A stretch of 64,000 nt of DNA from Ananas comosus (lineage: Eukaryota > Streptophyta > Magnoliopsida > Poales > Bromeliaceae), in NCBI RefSeq assembly GCF_001540865.1, contig NC_033641.1, positions 6,669,362-6,733,361 of the forward strand, in the 5' to 3' direction. A program made the position numbers and the translations under genes. The notes under the pieces were generated by a model, which was not told the DNA's origin, did no database searches, and was given only the letters and a program-made list of their open reading frames with translations. This document shows, in pieces, positions 11,192 to 64,000 of this stretch; within the stretch, counting starts at the first letter, position 1; every line of letters starts with the position of its first letter.

Positions 11192-11245
11192 NAATTCATA
11201 CCACATTTGCAAAACTCATTTGAAATGATGGCTAGTGTATTTCTT
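11192..11245. other. Single N followed by a small inverted patch in the Copia LTR
   Basis: After the N at 11192 the LTR sequence jumps back. Bases at about 11218-11240 (GAAATGATGGCTAGTGTATT) are the reverse complement of the LTR segment seen normally near 7710 and 10925. The LTR then resumes with a duplicated stretch. It looks like an assembly join or a fold-back chimera rather than a real event. Confidence 0.6.
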
Positions 11246-32966: not shown

Positions 32967-33615
32967 TGTTGGAATTTATTTGCTAACTATATTTTCTGTT
33001 TGTTGCCATATGGTGTGTCCACATTGGCGGGTTTTAATTTAACCCGATCCACTTAGGATGTGGGTTAGGACTTATCCTAATAGGTTTAGGATAATAATAA
33101 TAAATTATATGTTTCTTATCAGTTAAGAAACATATCTACTAGAGGATATCTATCATATCCTAGTTCTTATCCTAATCTCTTTGTGAGATTCAGGATATTT
33201 AGGGGTTCCGTTATTCTATATATACGCCCCCGTTTTCTCCCGTAGAAGAGACGATTGAATACGATCTAATTCGAGAATCCACAAAAATCTTCCTTCTTCT
33301 CTCTCCTCTTCCTCTCTGGGATTTCCACCTACGTTCCCGGGGTTTGGGATTTCCACCTACGTTCCCGGGGTTTTAGAGCGTGGACATAGGAGAGGACTCT
33401 GGTAGCCCTCTCCGATTGGCATCCGTGACGTAAGGCGATCCGTTCCGTGACGTAAGGCGTACGCGTGGAAGAAGACGAGAAACGTGAGAGATCCAGAAGC
33501 ATCGAGACAAGGACGATCCAAGAAGGCTTGTAAAACAAGCAACCCGATCCGATTACGGTTCCCGGATACGTTGGCTATCCGGTTTGTAAGTTTCCGCTGC
33601 CTATTATATCCAACA
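32967..33615 (+). repeat. Probable Copia-type solo LTR
   Basis: Starts TGTTGGAATTT and ends ATATCCAACA. Internal features fit an LTR promoter: a TATA box CTATATATA near 33217, then a CT-rich leader. A 28-bp unit (GGGATTTCCACCTACGTTCC...) is repeated in tandem at 33318-33374. No target duplication is evident, so the ends are tentative. Confidence 0.55.
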
Positions 33616-33888
33616 CTGTTGTTTCTGATTAAACCTACACGTCACTACTTATATAATAAGACATTTATATAAAGTTCTCGGAAATAGATGTGGTTCAATA
33701 CCTATCGTGATGCTTCGGTGTTAAAAAATAGAATCTTCAAAAAAAAAAAAATATTTTTCATACTTTTCAATATATTTTAAAATTACTAAAACTTTTAAAG
33801 TAAATATGTTCTACTCGTTGCAAAATAACTTATAGAAATATAAGATCTAAAATTTAGGATTTAAATTTTAAAAGATTGTAATATATCT

Positions 33889-33919
33889 ACCCGCCGCATC
33901 GCGCGGGTCACTACACTAG
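33889..33919 (+). other. Helitron 3' terminal hairpin and CTAG end
   Basis: ACCCGC / 8-base loop / GCGGGT, then 11 bases ending CTAG, then host T. This is the replication stop signal of Helitrons. Confidence 0.9.
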
Positions 33920-35561
33920 TTTGACATTAAACTCAAATCAAATCCAAAAGGTTACCCGGTCAACTTGACTAGGTTGACTGGCTCAAATCTGATAAATTGT
34001 AAAGAAGTCCTCCAAAATATTGTTGTGGCTCTTGCATCCAATTTGGTACAATTTGATCTTATTTGGACCAATTTGAACAATTTAATTGAATTGTTATCTT
34101 TGATCATGATTCCGGTTCGGTTTGAGCCACTTTAAATTCAACTACAACCTGAAATTGCTATGTAACAAATTAAATCCAAAATTTATTTGTTATCATCAAA
34201 ATTTATTATTGGATAAAATCCAACACATAGTAGGCTTGGCATGTGATCTTAGGGTGCATGAGAATGAGCTTTGTGATATAGAACCCTATAGAGATAAGTT
34301 AAACGATAACTTGATCTTGCATTGATGGATATGATGATATATTACTAGAATAGTCGAGACATTGCATCATGACGAGTGGCATACGAACCAAGTAAACAAC
34401 TTGATGAGTGGCATTAGAACTTAGTGTTAAGAGAACACTTGTGACATGATGACCCTAGTGACAGGATATCATCAGTGGACGAGGATTGGATCAAACTCAC
34501 ATTGTCTGTTCAGCACTTGTGGCGGTTGCTTCGCACAAGTAGTGTGCTTCGGAGTTTGGCATGTGAATCGATTAGGATAGCCTATGTGGGGTCCCAAGGG
34601 ATAGTCTATATGGGGTCCTGCAGACGGTCCCTTGGGTGGTTCGAGTCCCCCGTTATAGAGGGATTTTGAGATGTGAGTCGAGGGCGCGCCTACGGGCCAG
34701 CCAGAGAATTGGGTAATAAACTCATGAGAATTATGTCAATTGAGCATATTGAAATTCTTCCGACGGAACGCATTGAGCATATTGAACCCTATAGGGTACG
34801 TTTTTCTGCGAAATCCGTCGACGGAACGCGTTTTCGGTTCGAAATTCTTCCGACGGTGCCTCGTGATAAATTGTTATGTCGCTGAGCCTTGTTTGCTGGT
34901 CTCCCGCGTCGTTTCGAGGGTCTGGAAACGACGGGTGAGCGACGGTAGATTCCTGTGTAGAATTGGACACTTCCGGGAACCCTGATCGGAACGATTATTC
35001 AACAATAATCCTTTCGATGTGAGGCGGTGTGTTTGCTGATTCGTATCGAGGGTTCGGAAATGACGGGTGAGCGACGGTAGGTGTCGAATAGGACACTTTC
35101 GGGAACCCGGATCGGAACGATTATCCGACGATAATTGTTTCGAAATGTGGTGGTGAAGTTGCTACTAAGGCACACGAATATATGTGTTTAGTGGTAGCGG
35201 GTGACTCGTAGCATGAGTGGGTGAGTTCTGGGATAGTTCGTGGGTCTCAATGGAGTCTCGGTGCGGTTTTGGGAAACCGATTCTCGTAGGTTTATTAGTG
35301 GGGTTTGTGAGTTAGTGATTCGTGTTGTAGGTTGGATGCTAACCCGATGGACCCTTCGTAGGTCCAGTTGTTACTTCCTTTGCAGTTGGAAGGACAGTAC
35401 TGTATTTGTTCAGGTGGGTACTTCGACCCGAAGTCGGTACAGTGATGCACGCTCGATGACATTCCCTTCACTCTTTCCTTATTGTTTATCTTGCATTATA
35501 TATATTGAGCCTAGCACCTATACCATATCTTGTTATTGCTCTACTTAGTTGGTTTGCATAC

Positions 35562-36028
35562 TGTAACGGTTGAGCCCACTAGCAATAAAAACTCGTTAGG
35601 CCCAACCACCGGCCCAAAATGCTTAAGCCTAGTTATTGTTACTAGTGTCTAAGTTTCTTATAAACTCAATGACAACTCCTTTCCCATCCGATGTGTGACT
35701 ATTGGGGTGTCACAGACAATCCCCGTTAAGGCCCTGACGTCCTCGTCAGTCCAATCACACATAGCCCAAGATCACCAGGCGATGTGAGACTCGTCTCGCT
35801 AGCCTGTCATCCAGACCCTAGCTCAGCCGAGACTCACCACACATTTCCGGCTGGTGAACCAACTCTGATACCAAATGTAACGACCCAGCCCACTAGCAAC
35901 AATAACTCACTAGGCCCAACCACCGGCCCAAAATGCTTAAGCCCGGTTATTATTACTAGTGTCTAAGTATCTTATAAACCCAATGACAACCCTTTTTCCA
36001 TCCGATGTGGGACTATTGGGGTGTCACA
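35562..36028 (-). mobile_element. TRIM (terminal-repeat retrotransposon in miniature)
   Basis: Two 153-bp direct repeats, 35562-35714 and 35876-36028, both TGTAACG...GGTGTCACA and highly similar, flank a 161-bp middle. The middle ends AACTCTGATACCAAA (35861-35875), which on the minus strand is a tRNA-Met primer site. Total 467 bp, no coding. Flanks CATAC and GAATA are not a clear duplication. It sits inside the outer family-C LTR. Confidence 0.85.
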
Positions 36029-36896
36029 GAATACTCAGTATCATGTTTCAGAAGTAGAACGGTTTTTGCGATTGCTTGTGAGATCCGTGAGCTAGTTGGT
36101 CAGTTCTGGTATCTAGTATTGTGACCTATTCGCTCGATTCACTGCATCTATTATTGTGATTTATTTAGTCGGTTGAACCACTTGATGACCTATACGATCA
36201 GTATACCCTGAGAAGTTGCATTGTCGGCTAGTTGCCGATGTTTGGTTATGACCTAGTCGGTCAGTTCGTTGCATCTGGTATTCTAACCTACTTGGTCGAT
36301 TCTTGTATCTCGTACTAGTGACCTATTCGGTCGACATATTGCATATGTTATTGTGATCTACTTAGTTGGTTGGACTACTTGGTGACCTAGGTGATTAGTA
36401 CACCCTGAGGGGTTAGATTGTCGGCTAGTTGCCGATGTTTGGCTATTGAGCATACCATCATCGATTGCGACTGCTCGTACGCATTTCACGAACACCAGCG
36501 GTTTGATCCACCGCAAGAAGGTATTCTTTTCCGAAAAAAGTGGTTGGGAGTGCTAGCTCGTGAGCCCAAGAGGGGTTATATGCTTTTATACCCAAGAGTT
36601 TATGCTGGGGTCATGTACAGATTAGAGCAAGTGTGGCACGGGCCTGAGGTGTTGCGAACCAATATGGCTATTTTAGATTGGGTATTTGGACTTGTCGTCC
36701 AGTTGATGCATACATGCAGTAGCGGTAGTTGTTCATTATATCTCTTGTTTGTTTATCATCGTTGCTACTGTATTACACTTACCCATACCTTTATTATTCT
36801 TCTTGACTGGTGAGTACCCCTCGCCCTCGTTGACTTGTGGTACCCACTAAGAAGGAAGACATGTGTACATGTTCTCACCCCCCACCCTCATTACTN

Positions 36897-37825
36897 TCGA
36901 ATCGCTCGTTTAGTAAACGAGCCGAATATAAGTTGAATTTTTCAGCTCATTTAATAAACAAGCCAAACACGAGCAAGGGTCAGCTCGCTCGTGTTCGGCT
37001 CGATAACAGCTCGATTATATTTATTTTATATTAATATAATATTATATATATTATATATTATATATATAATTATATTTGTATTATAAATATATATATAATA
37101 CAGATTATTAATTTTAAATTTTTAGTCCAATTTTTTAAAAAAATTTAGCTTATTTATAAAAAAGGCCCATAAGCCCATTTATATATAGAAGTTTTTATTT
37201 TCATTCATGGCCCATAGATCTATAAATAAGTACCAATATTTTTATTTTTTTAAGTCCCAACCCTAATTAGTAATCCCATCTTTTTCACACTGCCCCACAC
37301 ACAGCCGCACACACAGGTGACACAGCCACACACATATGACACACATAACTCTCTCTCTTTTTTTCTCTCAGGCTCGCACAAGCACCGCACACGACCGTCT
37401 CCCTCTTTCTCTATCTTAGGCTCGAAGATCACGGCGAGGCACGCGCGGTTGGGGACGATCTCCATCTCAATCTCGCGAATCAACTTCAGGACCTCGGAGC
37501 GGTGCGCGTCCTCGGCGGTCGGGGGCCGAGGTCGAGCGCCAGCACTCGCGCCGTGCAAGGTCGACGAGGTCGCGTACGTCCTCGGCCACGGCGAACTTGG
37601 CGGTTGGGAGGATGTCGAGGAGCGAAGAATCACTGTCGAGGGTGTGCCCACGAGCTCGAGCTAACGAGCCGAACACGAGCCGTCTCGATTAAGTTTCGAG
37701 CTGATCACGAGCCAGAGTTTTCGAGCTCATCACAAGCTCGAGCCGAACACGATCCGACCTTGAAGATGACGAGCCGAGCTCAAGCTGGCTCCAGCTCGCT
37801 CGAGCTCAGCTCGTTTACAGCCCTA
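36897..37825. mobile_element. hAT-like non-autonomous element with a gene-like insert
   Basis: The right end reads GCTCGTTTACAGCCCTA, the inverse of the common hAT-type end TAGGGCTGTAAACGAGC. Both flanks are rich in GAGCCGAACACGAGC words. The left end abuts a single N (36896) and lacks the expected TAGGG, so it is incomplete in the assembly. Within it, 37360-37640 is GC-rich and open on the minus strand in more than one frame, so it may be a captured exon; I do not recognise it. Family-C LTR flanks it on both sides. Confidence 0.5.
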
Positions 37826-38467
37826 CCCATTATAGGTGACGTCGCAGGTCCTAGTGGGACAGTTCGTGAGAAGCGTACTTAGCGGTTCGGTTGAGCTTAC
37901 AGACCCGTCCATTAGTTTAAACTCTAAACTCAGTTTCTTTAAATAAACAACTTAGACTGCATTTATGGTTCAGTATTTTATGTGAATTGAATATTTGGGC
38001 TTTCGTGAATGTAATAAAAAATTTGTGATTTCTTGTGAAATAAAAATAGTTTTCTATCCCTTATAGTAGCGAGTTTTAAAAGAAAAAGGTTTCTATGTGG
38101 TAAAAAAATTTTAAAACGGTTTTCTTGATTTTCGTGATTTAGTGTTTTAAAACGAGTTTCCGGATATGAAACATTTTAAACTAATAGTTGTGGATTTATG
38201 AATAACTTTAGTTGTGGATGTGATTGTAAATGGTGTATGATTATGTGTATATGCATATGTGTGGTTGTATCCTGTATGATAAATCTTGTATCTTGTACTT
38301 GTGCTACGTCCTGCAAATACAAGGAAGATTCTATCCGTGTGAACAGTGGACTCTCTGTATTTGTAGCGGATCTGACAATACCCTAGGGGTCAGGATTTTC
38401 AAAAAAAAAAAATTTGGACACTGCCGCAATTGGATTTTAATCCAAAATAGGACCCCGGAGCGTGACA

Positions 38468-38925
38468 TATTAAAATGTAGCATTATAAGTTCCATTCCAA
38501 ATACAAACCAAATGACTTAAAATTATGCAGAGGTCGAAAACATTAAAAACGAACAACACAACACAACGTAACTCAACACAACACAACGCAACGCAACGCA
38601 GCGTATTGCGAAGAATCAATCAGAGTCGTCCGAAACTTCATTCGGGAAATCGAAGCCGTCCACCTCACCGTCGAGGTACTTACTCCTCGTCGTCCTCGTC
38701 GAAGTCCTCGCCATCGAACTCGTCATCTACGTCGTCGTCGTCGTCGAATGAACAGTAAATTAAAAAAAATAGATTGAATATATATAAAAAATAAATATAT
38801 AAAAATTTATTTATTAGACTTAATCTAATATTTGAAACTTTACATATAAATGAGTTTTTTTTATAATTGAGCTCGTCTTTATATTTTTATTTTACTAAAA
38901 ATTAAATAATAAAAATATATATTAN
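38468..38925. other. Intergenic, with low-complexity acidic-codon tract
   Basis: 38545-38600 is an ACAAC/GCAAC repeat. 38685-38752 read on the minus strand is open as Asp/Glu codons (DDDDDVDDEFDGEDFDEDDE) and is followed by a perfect donor GTAAGTACC. It could be an exon fragment of an acidic protein or simply a GAC microsatellite. 38761-38924 is AT-rich and ends at a single N. Confidence 0.35.
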
Positions 38926-39010
38926 AGAGAGAGAGAGAAACGCAGAGCCCCCGCACTTGTTTGATCGATCTACCACACCCTCGCACCTCCTTCATTAGCC
39001 CTCACCTGTC

Positions 39011-39023
39011 AAAACCGCCCTTT
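39011..39023. promoter_or_regulatory. E2F site, mirror-written, in the MCM6 promoter
   Basis: Printed AAAACCGCCCTTT; reversed it is TTTCCCGCCAAAA, the canonical plant E2F site. MCM genes are classic E2F targets switched on at G1/S, so a site just upstream of MCM6 fits. In the printed orientation neither strand matches the consensus. Confidence 0.6.
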
Positions 39024-39063
39024 AGCTACCCAAGCGCGGTTAAGCGGCCACCACCGAACGCCC

Positions 39064-39281
39064 ATCCCGCCGTTAGGTCGAGGGAAAACCGCTCGGGCAA
39101 GCAAAAGCCGAGCTTTACTCTAGCTCTAGCTTAGCGAGTAAATTATTTGCTCGGCTTGTGCTCGACTCTAGATTAGAGTCGAGCACAAGCCGAGCTATTG
39201 TCTAGCTCGCTAAACTAAAGCTCGAGTAAATCTGGGCTCGTACTTGACCGAGCGTTTGTAGCTCAACCTAACGGTAGGGAT
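39064..39281. mobile_element. Small hAT MITE, mirror-written
   Basis: 218 bp. After string reversal the ends are TAGGGATGGCAATCC and GGATTGCCGCCCTA, an imperfect terminal inverted repeat of hAT type. Its centre holds a 22-bp perfect inverted repeat around GAT (39149-39170 and 39174-39195). No clear 8-bp duplication. Confidence 0.6.
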
Positions 39282-39767
39282 CACGATTCACTATTTGCTG
39301 TACTCGTTAAGAAACTAAAAAAAAAATTAAAATTTAAAAAATAAAAAAGCCCTATTTCGGTAGGGAAACCTACCCCCAAACCGTAACCGGGGATGGGCAA
39401 GTAAAATTTAGTTTATTTTCAGTTTAACCCTTAAGAACACGTCAAAGGCGGGGTGGCGTTTCTTTTTATTTGTTTTAGATTTATAACTGCTCTCCAGTTC
39501 ATATCTTAAAACTTTTAATAACACTTGTGTTCGCTCTTAACGATTTCACACTTCCTCCAAAAATACATAAAATCGAAGAGGAATTATGGAGAGATAGAGG
39601 AGAGTGTAATGCCTCGGACTCGTTCTCGACCTTGACTCCTCTCTCTCTCCCCTGTCTCTGCTGATGCCCTAGCCTCCTTCGCTCCGCCGGAGATCCGCCT
39701 TCCCCGTCAGATCGCCTCACCAATCTCGCTTCTCCCGCCTTGCTGCAGCTCCTTTCCTCCTTAACTG

Positions 39768-39835
39768 GTAAAAACTACTACTTTTACTATTTCTCTCATA
39801 CTTGTTAGCTATACTACTAACTGCTTGTTGTTAAG
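39768..39835 (+). other. Putative 5'UTR intron of MCM6
   Basis: Donor CTG|GTAAAA, a perfect TACTAAC branch site at 39815-39821, and acceptor TTGTTAAG. It ends 22 bases before the MCM6 ATG. Confidence 0.55.
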
Positions 39836-39857
39836 GTCGTTACAGAGAGAGAGAGAG

Positions 39858-45967
<6,110 letters not shown>

Positions 45968-48852: not shown

Positions 48853-48886
48853 NNNNNNNNNNNNNNNNNNNNNNNNNNNNNNNNNN
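48733..48886. repeat. AT microsatellite and 34-N assembly gap
   Basis: (TAAA)n then (TA)n up to 48852, then Ns at 48853-48886. The true gap size is unknown. Confidence 0.95.
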
Positions 48887-56300: not shown

Positions 56301-57492
56301 AGGTTGAGGGCGGTTTCTGTTGTTTATTTGAAGTTTTTTGTGTTCTATCTTATTGGCCACTCCCATACGAAAATTTCTGACTTTAAGAATTTGGCAATAT
56401 TAAATGATCTACACACTACAAGTAGGACAAGTATCTACTATTGTTTCTCTATGCTAATTGAATGCCAATATAACATGATAACGACTCACTCGCATAGACT
56501 GAGCTTGCACACTTTCTTGACTAGTCAAGCAGAAACAAATATCCGAAAGCTTACCACGCTGATTTGTTTGGCTTTTGTGCACTATCATATATATATATTA
56601 TTGTCTTTTTATGTTGCATGTAATTATTTTATGAAGCAAAATAGTAATGTGTGCGCTTCTGTTGGCAATTCTTGTCGGATATGTCTGTTACCATCCATTT
56701 TTCATGCTATGGTTATATTAGGCTTGATTCAAATACTCACAATGTTGAGAATGGACTGAACAGGGTTGCTGCTTCGTCAAATAAAAGACTTTTGGCGCGT
56801 TGCTTTGTTAATTTCCACTCTACTACACCCTAAGGCAAGTCATACCTGTGATAGTCTCAACAGTCACACTGAACTGGACAGAAGAAAAATATTTGGAAAA
56901 TTTGAGAGCGCAATAACTCAACTTGGTAATTAATTTTTCTGATACTTTTTATCTATAATCATTTGTGATGATTATTATTATTATTTTTGTAATTATTTGT
57001 GCTGAGTTGCCATTTGTGGTATCTCAAATCTTCCGAAACTTGCATATACTCAATAGGTATATGATAGTTTGTGGGAAACTATTCGCTGTTTCTTTCTCTG
57101 CATGTGCAGGGAGTTGATTCCTTTTATTTCTTTTGCTTCCTCTTTAAATAAGTCACTATTGTGTTCGCTCGCTACCAATTATTTCTTTGGTTGATGTGTT
57201 CAGATCTCGACCATGTGTGGAAAATGAAGTTATTGCTTGACGGGAAGGCAATGATGGGAGTTCTGCAGCTTAAATTGGGAGGGCCATCAATTGGGAAATG
57301 GGTAAAACAAGTTCCTGTTATGTTAGAAGCTGATCTGAGCTTTTCTATCTGCTTACAATTATTAATGCTTGTTTGCAGCGACAAAGGCTGCTAAAGTGGC
57401 AGCTCGCCCATCCGAACGGAACGATGGAAGAGTGCATTGATTGGATAAAGCAATCTCAAGCGAAATGCCAGAAAATAGATTGTTCCGCTTGA
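53329..57492 (+). pseudogene. CCA-adding tRNA nucleotidyltransferase, C-terminal 11 exons (gene incomplete here)
   Basis: Exons: 53329-53378, 53484-53582, 54268-54377, 54543-54670, 55067-55133, 55295-55378, 55954-56016, 56158-56302, 56764-56925, 57204-57301, 57379-57492. They code 372 residues in one consistent frame from LFYNINTNSVEDVTGRGIQD to KCQKIDCSA. Recognisable: [20 protein letters not shown] (neck/nucleotide-recognition motif), ISRERIGHEVDLMVS, the helical tRNA-binding body, and the typical plant C-terminus with TMEECIDWIKQ. The gene product matures tRNAs in cytosol, nucleus and organelles. Missing are the N-terminal GGxVRD exon and the RRDxTINS exon; the DxD exon is stranded at 46966-47093. 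The intron after 54377 has a GC donor. Because the remaining exons are clean, a living gene damaged by assembly is as likely as a pseudogene. Confidence 0.8.
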
Positions 57493-57728
57493 ACATGTTC
57501 CCCTTTGCGGCTTGTCTTCTGCCTAATTCTAACTTGTCTTCGCCCTAATTTATCCAATCAAAATCCCCAGAAATCTTGTGGAGTAATTTACAAAAGCATG
57601 ACTTGATTTGCGCATCAACGAGTGGCATGAAGCATCAGTATTTTTGCTGGAGAGCTAAGTTTACAGCTTGGAGATTGTAACCATCATCCTCATCTTGCGT
57701 GTTTTTTTTGTTTTTTTTTTTGTGGGGN
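57493..57728. other. Intergenic, ends at a single N
   Basis: 3'UTR-like DNA after the CCA-enzyme stop, a T-rich run, GTGGGG and an N at 57728. The next base starts the mirror-written segment. Confidence 0.6.
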
Positions 57729-60126
57729 AGTAGGTGTTCCACAACACAACCACTTTAAATTCCTAGCTTCTCTACCACGCTTTACGTAGCTCAACTACTT
57801 ACCTTCTACCAAACAAAAGTTGGAGAGTTGCGTTTACGTCTCAAATTTTAACCAAAATTTAATTGATCTGTGTTAGTTTACGTTCGTTGAGGTCCGGTGT
57901 CAAGTATGGATCAGAAAATGGATAATTACTTACCCGGAGTGCCATGGACTTGGTTTTTTTTATTGTCCAAATTGTCACGTTTGGACCAGTATATCTTCCT
58001 TTTATATGGGCTCAAATAATCGTCAAATTTGAGAGTCTAATCCTTATCCTTTGACAACTATTGAAGTTTTTAGTTCGATATTAATCCTTAATGTTCATGA
58101 CTCCGAAAGCGATTAAGAAAAGTGAGTCTCTAGCCAAATAAAATATAGACTGCCAAAATTTCTTGTTTGTTTTCGTTACTCGTTTCCCGATAATATAATA
58201 TGACAACGGCTAGTTAGTTTTACCACTAGTGGTATGGATTAATACAGTGTTCGACAATTTTGTATAATGTGCGGAACAAGAAAGTTAATATGAAAAACAA
58301 GTTTTAGATATTTTTTCCGGTAGGATAATCGTCTTTCCCCTAGCATAATCGCCTTTCCCTGAGTCTAGTTCTTCCTCCAAAGTGGTGCGGGGTGAGGCGA
58401 CGGGGGTTCTTATCGACGAGTTAACCTTTAAGACACCTTTTAGTTTAACAAACGTATAACCCACGTATATACAAAGATCATCACTTGAAACTTTAGAATG
58501 TCAAACCAGTTGTATATCCAAACGCCCCTCCGTTTAAGTACGATCACTTCTACTACCAAGCCAATTGGTGCGAGAATAAGCACTAAAGCTGCTCCTCCGT
58601 CGTTCCGAACTCGTTAAACCACGTCTTGAACTTCCGCTGACTACGTTTTAGAATAGGGTGACATTAAACCGTAAGAAAATCTCGGTTCTCCCACTCCTAG
58701 GTGTTTGATTAAACGATTTGAAAATGTTAAAAATAACTGTGAAATTGTAGCCGACCATTACCCATCGATCAAATCAACAGGATCAACTGGTTTTACTCGT
58801 GATTTATGAGAGTACTCAAAGGAGGTTTACTCACCAAACTGATAACTTTAACACTTGTATAAATCTAGGTTTGGTCATGATAGTTTCTTAGATAGCTATT
58901 CGTTCAAGATTGCTCCTCGGCTTTTGGTTTGAGTATATTTTAAATCTATCTTACATGATCCCGATACACTTGAGCTTCAACTTCTGGGGCTATTTTAACG
59001 AGCTTAACTAATAAAAAATTTCACTGAGCCGGATACGTAAAACAAAGTACCCGAAATTTACGTTGCACACCACTTTGACCAGCTCAACTAAACGATCTTG
59101 TACACTAAGCCACCGAAGACTAAACATCGGTGATCGTGGTTGAGATACCAAGTTTCATGATGTGTTAAGTACTGATACCAAAATAAACCAAGAGTCGAGA
59201 GTGACTAACGTATTTTGGCGGTCTTAAACGTTGTAAACCCACATTCTGCTGTTATTAATTGTCGTTGGTGTCGTGATAACTGGCCTACATACTTTACGTA
59301 AATAGAGAAAAAAAGAGAAAGATGTAAAGGTGGAACGAAACAAATCGTCAAAAATGGGAAAAAATTAACGAAGATACACGAAGTATCATCCTTACTTATT
59401 AGTGAAAGGACGATGAACTCTGAGTTTACACTCCGAAACAGAGTAAAGAGAAAGTCTACCGCGCTTCCTTTACAGAGCAAATTTATGGAGTTTAGTTTAG
59501 GAATGAGCTTTGGTTGGATGCCTTCCACTACAGGCGTACAGGCGTACTTTTCTCGCTACGTCGTGTTTACGCCACTGTTTGTCTCTTTAGAAGCCGTGCA
59601 GTACAAAGAGATGTTTTGAAACAAGAGTTTCGGTAGTCGAGAGTGGAACAGTTGTATTCCTTTAAATGTAGGAAGAACGTCGTTGCTTTGATTCATACCG
59701 ATTGTAACCTGCGTTCCCGAATTAATACATATTAAACAAACATAATACCAGGACCTAATAATTAGATAATTTAAAACTTTGAAACTGGAATTAAACCTCT
59801 ACCGAGCTTTGTCTACGCATAAAGTATAGAACAAGAAAAAAAGGAATAACAAGTACACGACTAAGAATAACTTTACCACATGTTATTTCCGGGAAAAACT
59901 TTTAAAACGTGGACTACAAGAGAATATTATAACGGAAGAAAGTTACCACCAACCGTATCATAAACCCTCCTTAGACCAACCTTAAAACGACGAACAAATC
60001 CCGGTGACTTACTTTTTGTAATGCTGGGATAAACATGGATAAACTTACATACTTATAAAATAAGTCATATAGAGTATCTAAACAACATATATTAATTTTT
60101 TCATATTAGGTTCCAGACTAATCCCA
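57729..60126. other. 2.4-kb segment written in reverse without complement
   Basis: The base-by-base complement read left to right gives 57729-57809 as CATCCACAAGGTGTTGTG... coding HPQGVVLVKFKDRRDGAKCI, with a donor GTTTGT. It gives 58519-58642, after acceptor ATATAG, as FAGRQIHASEDDGSVNHAL ... GAELEGD and a TGA stop. These are the last two exons of the minus-strand Tat-SF1 gene, which otherwise breaks off at 60127. The frame crosses the joint exactly: GAGAA (60127-60131 side) plus TCATCC. Printed, the segment also has a CpG excess over GpC, the opposite of neighbouring AT-rich DNA, as mirror-reading would cause. Confidence 0.93.
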
Positions 60127-63100
60127 TTCTCGCAAACCTGCATGTTCATTTATAGGTAAATCAGTACACTTCGAACATCAGCAAAACAAGAAAAGGCTTC
60201 CTACTCTTACCACAACAAGTGTCAAACAAAGGCAATCTGTAGCAAAAAGTAAAGAAGTTCGATCCCTAAAATTTATAGCAATATCAATTACTCTAAAAAA
60301 CCATACAATAATGGGCAGATCAACTTAATCAAAGACAACATAAATTGACACTGTATATAGGCAGAAAGTGGGAAATCTCTAGTAAAGTCGCATACATGGG
60401 CAAGCTAAAGTCAAGCAGGAAATGAAGTTTTCATTACTTAAAAATGAGTGACTTAAATCTGAGACAGTTACAACGTCATTTGATATTTTCTCTACTAGAA
60501 CAAGAGATGAACAAGTGCAAAGTAGCCATTGAAAGGATATAAGAAACTAAAGAATTCCTAAGGTCAATCCAAATACAGAAGCTTACAAAGGAACAGATGT
60601 TGAACTTGATATATACAACAACAACAAGAATTATTCAAGTTCATTAACAAACTCATATTACTCCAAATGCTTGTATTCATCAGCAGCAGAACGGATCTCT
60701 CAAATAAACATACCAAGAAAAGAGGCATGCAGATAACTATATATGTAAAACTTTTCTACTTCAACACACAACAAAATGAGTAGTGCAAAAGTATAATGAA
60801 TTTCATCACATAAATATAAAATTACTTTCAAAACAGTATATTCTAAACCAGCGTGCCACAAACCTAATTAAAAAACATTTAAATGAATTGTACTAACCTT
60901 TACATTTTCAACCGGACCCAGCTTCATGCATTCCTCTCTAACATCTGCATCTAGCTCTGGAAGAAGACTTTCATCACTCTGCAAATACAAGAACATCCCC
61001 ACTCATCATTAGACCATGGCACCAAATTATCTAAGCATTTCATTCATGCAGATAAACATCAGAAACAAATTGCCGCAAAAATGTGCCCGGTAATTTGGAT
61101 CATAAAAGCAAACAGAGTAACAAGGCCCGTTTGAAACTGTTTACCCTCAATTCAGCAGGAACGAACATGTTCCTTAAAACAATGGTGGTCGGAATAGACA
61201 CCTTCGCATCATCATGCCCACCTAATCAAAGAAAGAGAGTTAGGTTGGATAGCACCTCTCAAGAGCACCAAAAATTCACAAAAGATATATCGACATCAAT
61301 CAAAGATATGCATACTGACAACATGGACTAGGTAGGCCTTACTTCACTCAAAGAAATGCATGTACTTAGATATGTAAGACTGATGATTACCCCATCCAAG
61401 AATTTTATCTTCAACTCTCTTTATTTTCTTTTTCTTATGCTTATCAGCCTTCCTCGCTATAAATTTCTCACCTGTACACAAAGCAGAAAATAAGTCTTTT
61501 TATCCAATATTTAAACATTCTCAGCATTACGATGGCAGGAAACTATGCCAATGTTAACCTTTTTGTTCAAATTTAGCTTGGCTTACAGACATGGGAATCT
61601 TTCCACCAGGACGAAGTGGAGTGCCATCCAATATTTGAATTGCTAAAGCAACGGAAGGTTCCTGGAATGGACAGGAAAAAGTTATACACAAATTTAAGTT
61701 GATATTCACGTAATGTTTCAATAGGAAGAGTACTACTTACCTTCAGATAGGTGACAAGTGCATCACCCTTCTTTCTACCTGTTTCTTTGTCTATGTATAC
61801 CTTCACTCGAGGCTTCCTTGTTTCAGGGTCCTAAAGATGTTAAGACGTATGAGTGAAAAGGATGCCCTCATCTATGAAGGATGAACTTAACCAAAGGTAA
61901 CTTTATATCACGCTTAATCAATTATTCAGTACTCGAAACAACTAAAAAGTGCTATCAACATCAACGAGACAGCGATGAATCAAAGACAGAAACAGCTTAA
62001 ATCTTGCCCTAAAACCAACCGGAATGTAAAATAGGACAAACCACAAGACAAGTGTGATACAGACACATTTGTCTTGCATGCAGAAAATTAACGCTTAACA
62101 AGTGGAACTTGCTTTGAATAAGCAATCGGAGACTTTCATCTTAAAAGAACTCCCCTCCCTCCCCCAACAAAAAATGTTGACAATCAACCTATTGCGTTCA
62201 AAAGCTCTCAAGTCAAACAAATTTGTTAAAAGATAATAATTGTGCACTTGCATGCATTAGGCCAGGCAAATAGCTAACATAGTTTGCAAAAATGCAAACA
62301 ACACATATATACAAAAGAAAAGAGAATTATGGCGGGAAAAAAAATCTGAAGTGCAAATAGATAAATAATTTTTCTTACCTCCTTTATAATTCCACACTTA
62401 GAGAATACTTCCACTACCTGCAAGATAAATTTGAGATTAGAGCCACAACTATGACACGCGATGCATGGAACTAAACAGGTGCAAGCACATTTAATTATTT
62501 CTTGCTAGGCAGTTGCCAAGTAATGTGCCATGAAATAACAATTATGTGAAGCATGAAATAAAAGTAGGAGACCTAATACTTACTTCTTCGACAGTAACAT
62601 CATCAGGCAACCCAGTCACATAAACATGAGTATTGACCTTCAAATCAAACCAGCTATCTGGCGGGTTATTAGCTTCCTGTCACAGTTTGAATGGTTTATT
62701 AGCTTCCTTTCGCAGTTTCATTCAAAAACCATCATCATCCTCCCATAAAAAATATTCAAGCATGTATAATATCAGAAGTAGCAACTTGGTAAGTGTCATT
62801 CCTTCTCTTGACTAGTAATTAAAGACAATGCCAGTGCTAAAAGACCATGTACAGAGGGTAAAAGTGCAAATATCTGCTTCCTACTTGGCTCAAGTGTGCA
62901 AGGAAGGCCCTCTAAAGCAGAATAATAGTTTGTTCCATTCTATGCAAACTCGAATGAATAGGAAGCTAAAACATGCCCTTACCTAAGAATTAGAGAAACA
63001 ATAATAATAATCAAAAGTAAAAAAGCAAGAAAAAGGTACCTTCTTTTCAGTTGGCTTCTCAGATGATTTCCGCTTCTTCTCCAATTTTGTTTCAGCTTTT

Positions 63101-64000
63101 TCATTCAAAACATTGCTCTCCTCTGGCACAGAGGGATCAGGAACCTCTGAAGTTGGAAATACCTCCTCCTCATGTGCAAAAGTCATCTCTTCAAGTCCAT
63201 ATTCACCTCCCTTACTTGAAGGATTATCCTATGGAATAACAACGTTCATGTAATTTCCACCTTTTCATGTGTTTTAAGAGAAATAATATATTGACACTGT
63301 AACACAACTGCATAGAGTAGTGGTCTTAACTTGAAAGTGGATTACAGGAGGAAGCATAAGTACACATGTATTTCCAGCAAATAATTTTGCCCAAGATTAA
63401 AGCAAAGAAAAAAAATTCATAGGAAGCTAATATCATCTGGCAAAGTTCTATGGCTAAACTGGAGAACTTCAATAATCTCACAAAGCAAATTGTGGCAAAT
63501 AAGCATTAAGGCAACTTACTTTGAGTTCATACATGTATTTTGTTACACTGATTTGGCACAACTGAGGGGGAAAAAAAATCAGATTACCTAAGAATTAAGA
63601 CCAGACTACATGGAGTAATGCTTACTTGAGGAACCCACGCCCTGACGCCACGATCCCATTTATAAACAGTTCCGTCATCATCAGTAAATTCTTCCTCACC
63701 ATCTGGTGGGGTCGCCGGTCTATCATTGAGACCCGCTTCTGTCCCTCCTCCCTCACCCTCAATATTTCCACCTTTCAGGGCCTCAGCCTCGGCCTCAGCC
63801 TCTAACACCTCTTTCTGCCATTTCACAAAATCATCGTTGTTTTCTTCCGCATCTACGAGAAAAAGACAAAATGAGGAAGGGCTCCTTTTGTTTGTCGAAA
63901 TCAAGGTTTAATTAGGTAATAATAACTTTGTTAACCTTCGGTAGGACGATTAGCTGTTTGAGCTGAAATCCCTATATATAGCTCAGGAATTGAGGATAAT
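57729..64000 (-). CDS. Tat-SF1/CUS2-like splicing factor (RRM plus UHM), partial at the 5' end
   Basis: Homologue of human HTATSF1 and yeast CUS2, which help U2 snRNP bind SF3B1 during prespliceosome assembly. Minus-strand exons: 64000-63936 (runs off the window), 63852-63626, 63228-63040, 62676-62584, 62417-62379, 61830-61741, 61661-61559, 61471-61391, 61221-61145, 60978-60898, 60137-60127. The next exon and the last one lie in the mirror-written block (57729-57809 and 58519-58642, readable only as direct complement). Domains: acidic N-terminus with DDDGTVYKWDRGVRAWVPQ; first RRM (RNP2 HVYVTGLP, RNP1 KKGDALVTYL); a basic KHKKKKIKRVEDKILGW linker; second RRM of UHM type (TIVLRNMFVP ... MNGRWFAGRQI) with the RWF signature that binds tryptophan-containing ligands. 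It ends GAELEGD. All splice sites used are GT-AG. Confidence 0.9.

Follow-up and report, generated by a model that had tools for sequence, protein, structure and literature searches.

A 2.4-kb block of pineapple DNA printed as its own mirror string beside a single N, with gap filling as its probable source

According to the respective publications, GapFiller extends contig edges one nucleotide per step (PMC3446322), LR_Gapcloser can leave partly filled gaps with an N between two fills (PMC6324547), the pineapple MD2 v2 assembly was gap-filled with LR_GapCloser and has a contig N50 > 1.5 Mb (PMC8774480), and gap fills benchmarked in the DENTIST paper were less than identical to the truth (PMC8848313). 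Gap-filling errors (LR_Gapcloser, GapFiller, PBJelly, TGS-GapCloser) resemble the case described here in that the insert lies beside a residual N and would derive from extension of a contig edge; the present case differs in that the string is reversed, although the fill sits at the right locus and its coding part is accurate. A search by phrase found no account of a string-reversal fault of gap fillers among the best literature matches. The affected gene is akin to the plant Tat-SF1/ELF9/‘splicing factor U2AF-associated protein 2’ gene (once reversal is undone), from which the printed copy differs in missing its last 67 residues. Mirror repeats and H-DNA have mirror symmetry in common with this locus in name only: a mirror repeat holds both halves in one molecule, whereas reversed 300-bp pieces of the block yielded no match in the rest of the window (the whole 64-kb stretch of DNA analyzed here, to which all positions refer) at E ≤ 1e-3.

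Positions 57729–60126 of the window are real plant DNA printed as a mirror string, i.e., reversed without complement, and represent a data error and no real feature of the organism. The features on which this assignment is based are as follows.

57729..60126, no strand: mirror-string block, 2398 bp (from homology, translation and composition); its reversal maps position p to 117855-p
57728, no strand: single N that borders the mirrored block on its left, a residual gap
60127..63853, minus strand: upstream exons, in native orientation, of the Tat-SF1/ELF9-type gene, in nine pieces from DAEENN... to ...VENVK
60127..60137, minus strand: start of the penultimate exon (11 bases) in native orientation, GTTTGCGAGAA; the gene is cut here
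57729..57809, no strand: mirrored remainder of the penultimate coding exon, TCATCC... to ...AGATG (from translation and tblastn)
57810..58518, no strand: mirrored last intron, GT...AG if complemented left to right
58519..58642, no strand: last coding exon, mirrored, including the stop codon, FAGRQIHASEDDGSVNHALIRDFDEEAARLEQFGAELEGD (from translation and tblastn)
58643..60126, no strand: mirrored DNA downstream of the stop codon (from whole-block composition; protein comparison was with Tat-SF1 homologs alone)

The joint between native and mirrored DNA can be read at the level of single bases. Complemented and read left to right from 57729, the block gives VCENHPQGVVLVKFKDRRDGAKCIELMNGRW, a donor GT at 57810, an AG before the exon that starts at 58519, FAGRQIHASEDDGSVNHALIRDFDEEAARLEQFGAELEGD and a stop codon ending at 58642; across the joint, GAGAA|TCATCC stays in frame and is followed by a GT-AG intron and the stop. 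These positions, together with the N at 57728 and GTTTGCGAGAA at 60137-60127, agree with those given by a first-pass annotation of this DNA; the frame of its complemented reading from 57729 (VCENHPQGVVLVKF) is kept as well, while the string it quoted omits one T supplied by 57729. The limits of the block are fixed to one base (reversing 57730–60125 restores the same string as 57729–60126). Once reversal is undone, the exon frame of the flanking contig runs from 60127 into 57729, so that the base on the N side of the block is the true neighbor of 60127, the start of the right-hand contig, and the opposite end should in turn belong beside the N. No N is present at the right joint 60126/60127. 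Besides the N adjoining the block, the window contains four further N runs (one base each at 11192, 36896 and 38925, and 34 bases at 48853–48886).

Comparison with homologous proteins supports the mirror reading. A search with the joined exons (the query thus including the reversed ones) collected 597 proteins at E ≤ 0.001, of which the best 120 were used. The reversed block was matched by all 120 homologs in tblastn at E < 1e-10 (best 1.4e-21), vs. 0/120 at E < 1e-3 for the printed block in all six frames, where only 24 homologs gave some match at E ≤ 10 (best 0.23). As a control, pieces of 2398 bp from elsewhere in the window, overlapping and taken at steps of 600 bases, were reversed in the same way, and 0/95 gave a match at E ≤ 1e-3. 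Two exon stretches (28 and 40 amino acids, with one residue in common) correspond to residues 408–474 of P0002 with 67/67 identical. The penultimate-exon stretch, which in tblastn overruns the intron edge by a few bases, is identical to P0002 at 28/28 positions, and the last-exon stretch is identical to both P0001 and P0002 at 40/40; identity to P0001 over the two stretches is 96.4% and 100%. The proteins that we checked (P0001–P0004 and P0022) are ordinary full-length plant proteins. A second search, in which the query carried the printed continuation instead, returned mostly the same proteins among the matches listed; no public protein with the printed tail appeared among the best 120 of 485, which are representatives of 90% clusters with other members hidden in them, and their cover of the query did not exceed 96%. 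Reversing the block in place and repeating the protein search, a check proposed in the first-pass annotation, restored the last 67 residues of the Tat-SF1-type gene. Its claims of a mirror string, with which the composition described below agrees, and of a silent failure of homology searches, the latter for the Tat-SF1 exons, are thereby upheld.

The gene that is cut by the block is closest, among the best 120 of 597 proteins, to P0001 of Ananas comosus (94% identity for the joined exons) and P0002 of A. comosus var. bracteatus (88%), named splicing factor U2AF-associated protein 2 and RRM domain-containing protein, respectively; an N-terminal domain, PF14237, is listed for both. The best PDB match of the joined exons is HIV Tat-specific factor 1 (E 1e-46), and the HTATSF1 chains 6n3d and 6nsx match query residues 288–375. 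After reversal, RRM_1 matches both RNA-binding regions, at 1.6e-08 for the piece with the reversed exons and at 4.7e-10 for the native first RRM, vs. no family matched by the native piece of 51 residues preceding the joint, taken alone. The reversal-restored gene carries two RRM-type RNA-binding domains, the second of them of UHM type. As printed, the sequence after GTTTGCGAGAA reads VCENGISLEPNMKKLIYVV-stop, and the residues lost (HPQG... to the end) include the end of the second RRM. The restored coding part of the block contains no frameshift. By eye, the exons of the window mostly (but not fully) agree with the var. bracteatus protein; at 63626–63853, P0002 has a frameshifted version of the exon, QKRVPMIDRRPHQM..., and the window reads in frame, TEAGLNDRPATPPDGEEEF.

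A line of evidence that requires no homology comes from composition. Reversal without complement turns a dinucleotide XY into YX, and the biases of CG/GC, AC/CA and AT/TA are indeed swapped inside the block (observed/expected: CG 1.17, GC 0.63, AC 1.19, CA 0.86, AT 0.73, TA 0.92) relative to the rest of the window (CG 0.80, GC 1.04, AC 0.85, CA 1.04, AT 0.96, TA 0.83). A Markov orientation score comparing the printed with the reversed string, trained on the window minus the main block and 33000–40500, has its strongest negative segment at 57781–60130 (k = 4) or 57718–60129 (k = 5), limits that span both the exons and the 1.5 kb of non-coding DNA. The score of the block is -57.3 at k = 4 and -60.0 at k = 5, vs. 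averages of +42.4 (sd 17.6) and +61.9 for segments of the same length elsewhere, and none of the 2141 such segments, taken every 25 bases, is as low. The score also flags 33032–33815 (28.0) and 34824–35439 (18.1) at k = 5, with no N adjoining either. We take both for false positives: the former has, by eye, the ends TGTTGGA...TCCAACA as printed, as in a native LTR (such ends being typical of copia-type LTRs), and the latter has repeat matches in printed orientation within the window (pieces 34801 to 35401). The score alone is, therefore, no proof at a length of 0.6–0.9 kb. In a repeat-rich part, at 35570–36020, two similar copies of CCCACTAGCAA...GGCCCAACCACCGGCCCAAAATGCTTAAGCC are seen by eye in the same orientation.

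A second block, again starting right after a single N, is probably mirrored as well, on evidence weaker than that for the main block.

38925, no strand: single N, left edge of the second candidate block
38926..39843, no strand: second probable mirrored block, upstream of MCM6, right limit approximate beside a GA tract (from a reversed repeat match, a motif and the score)
39858..40968, plus strand: native start of MCM6, first exons, with the start codon at 39858 (best PDB match: DNA replication licensing factor MCM6, E 5.2e-58)

Four 300-bp pieces lie wholly inside this block; two of them match other parts of the window after reversal, and none does so in printed form (E ≤ 1e-3); the matches of the reversed block are at 36945–37014 (84.9% over 73 bp, E 1.2e-16) and 36897–36926 (93.3% over 30 bp, E 2e-7). 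Across the window, some match at E ≤ 1e-3 is obtained with 18/425 reversed 300-bp pieces, and the strongest one outside this pair reaches 3.8e-10 (piece 7801, beside tandem repeats). The motif GAGCCGAACACGAG, counted on either strand, is found in printed form at positions 36988 and 37666 and in mirrored form at positions 39150 and 39181. Going right from the N, the score is lowest at 39842 with k = 4 or 5 (at 39925 with k = 3, at 39626 with k = 6). A GA tract adjoins 39842, and the block also opens with one after the N; with GA tracts at both ends, the growth-order geometry proposed below for the main block would fit here too.

The block scores -7.7, -8.2 and -12.7 (k = 3, 4, 5), vs. about -12.2, -16.3 and -23.8 expected for a fully mirrored stretch and +16.3 (k = 4) for an average native segment. 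Scores as low or lower are found in 38, 19 and 4 of 2318 overlapping segments (k = 3, 4, 5) and in none at k = 6; these null segments also trained the model, which biases the null, most at k = 6. Freely placed negative segments nearby are weak and start left of the N (36718–39842, 19.4, k = 4; 37661–39900, 21.1, k = 5), and the two native-looking stretches mentioned above score similarly. With a modest score and a biased null, the second block rests mainly on the mirrored repeat copy. The repeat match would also arise if the 36897–37014 side were the mirrored one. We consider this less likely: the run from 36897 scores -13.1 and that left of 38924 scores -14.3 at k = 3, but they reach only -5.3, -2.7, -0.9 and -5.2, -2.0, -1.6, respectively, at k = 4 to 6. 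By orientation score, the single Ns at 11192 and 36896 have no clear mirrored extension on either side (36896 has a weak run at k = 3 only), so that a further probable block is seen at one among three further single Ns of the window.

The main block is very probably an assembly artifact, namely a gap-fill extension of the right contig written in growth order. An N followed by a block whose N-side base is the neighbor of the right contig argues for a right-flank extension written in this order. A gap would once have existed between a contig ending at 57727 and a contig starting at 60127; software would have added 2398 bases to the left end of the right contig, growing it into the gap, the extension would have failed to join the left contig, leaving one N, and it would have been written contig-neighbor first, in order of growth, without reversal. 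We infer that the fault lies in this gap-extension step, as a growth-order slip or as complement without reverse, either of which would produce an N, the mirrored extension and the right contig. The fill appears to have been accurate at the time of insertion, because its coding part is free of frameshifts and in perfect agreement with a relative, and it would have escaped later polishing, because reads would not map to the mirrored sequence. The adjoining N and a second probable block of the same geometry support, as the best explanation, the gap-filling or scaffolding fault suggested in the first-pass annotation.

The scaffolding variant of this idea, in which a separate 2.4-kb contig was set via a faulty reverse-complement routine (reversed only) and then merged with the right contig, is unlikely. 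It would also yield a mirrored block beside an N, and the coding part, with 67/67 residues identical to P0002, is of contig-grade accuracy. However, 60126/60127 lacks an N, and with the N-side base neighboring the right contig there would be no real overlap at 60126 for merging; an extension in place accounts naturally for either. Deliberate or accidental editing after assembly, e.g., a planted test or a conversion script applied to a sub-interval, is even less probable: although an editing command would give a clean in-place reversal with exact limits, and the printed continuation is reached by no public protein among the best 120 of 485, the start of the block coincides with a residual-gap N, and the second probable block shows the same geometry at another N (38925), favoring systematic software over a one-off edit.

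A biological rearrangement, be it an inversion, a palindrome, a mirror repeat or an insertion of hypervariable or foreign DNA, is so improbable as to be practically negligible, its sole support being that the printed sequence disagrees with the gene. A true inversion gives the reverse complement, yet the printed block is without a homolog match in all six frames at the threshold given above (0/120), and inversion is, therefore, rejected. By established chemistry, antiparallel synthesis cannot give a 2.4-kb mirror string; Thg1-type 3′–5′ polymerases also yield an antiparallel duplex.

Under the preferred reading of a growth-order extension, we lean towards the view that such mirroring is a systematic and unnoticed class of gap-filling error, and that many accurate but reversed blocks may lie right of single Ns in this assembly and perhaps in others made by the same tool. 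The biological interest is low, and the importance lies in data quality and annotation. Any annotation of the sequence as printed loses the 67 C-terminal residues of a conserved splicing factor, and the block would count as species-specific DNA, being invisible to ordinary aligners because only the strand and its reverse complement are tried; the second block, if mirrored, would hide the 5′ flank of MCM6. If the fault is systematic, each reversed block hides exons or promoters and poses as lineage-specific ‘orphan’ DNA, with spurious truncations, wrong presence/absence calls and missing promoters as a result. Detection is cheap and can combine CpG/GpC asymmetry or a k-mer orientation score with a reversed-string homology search beside single Ns.

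To the left of the N, 57200–57492 contains the end of a gene that lies on the plus strand and converges on the Tat-SF1 gene; the last exons of this converging gene, joined by hand, match in the PDB a polynucleotide adenylyltransferase family protein (E 1.8e-14) and the tRNA nucleotidyltransferase cca2 (E 3.7e-6).
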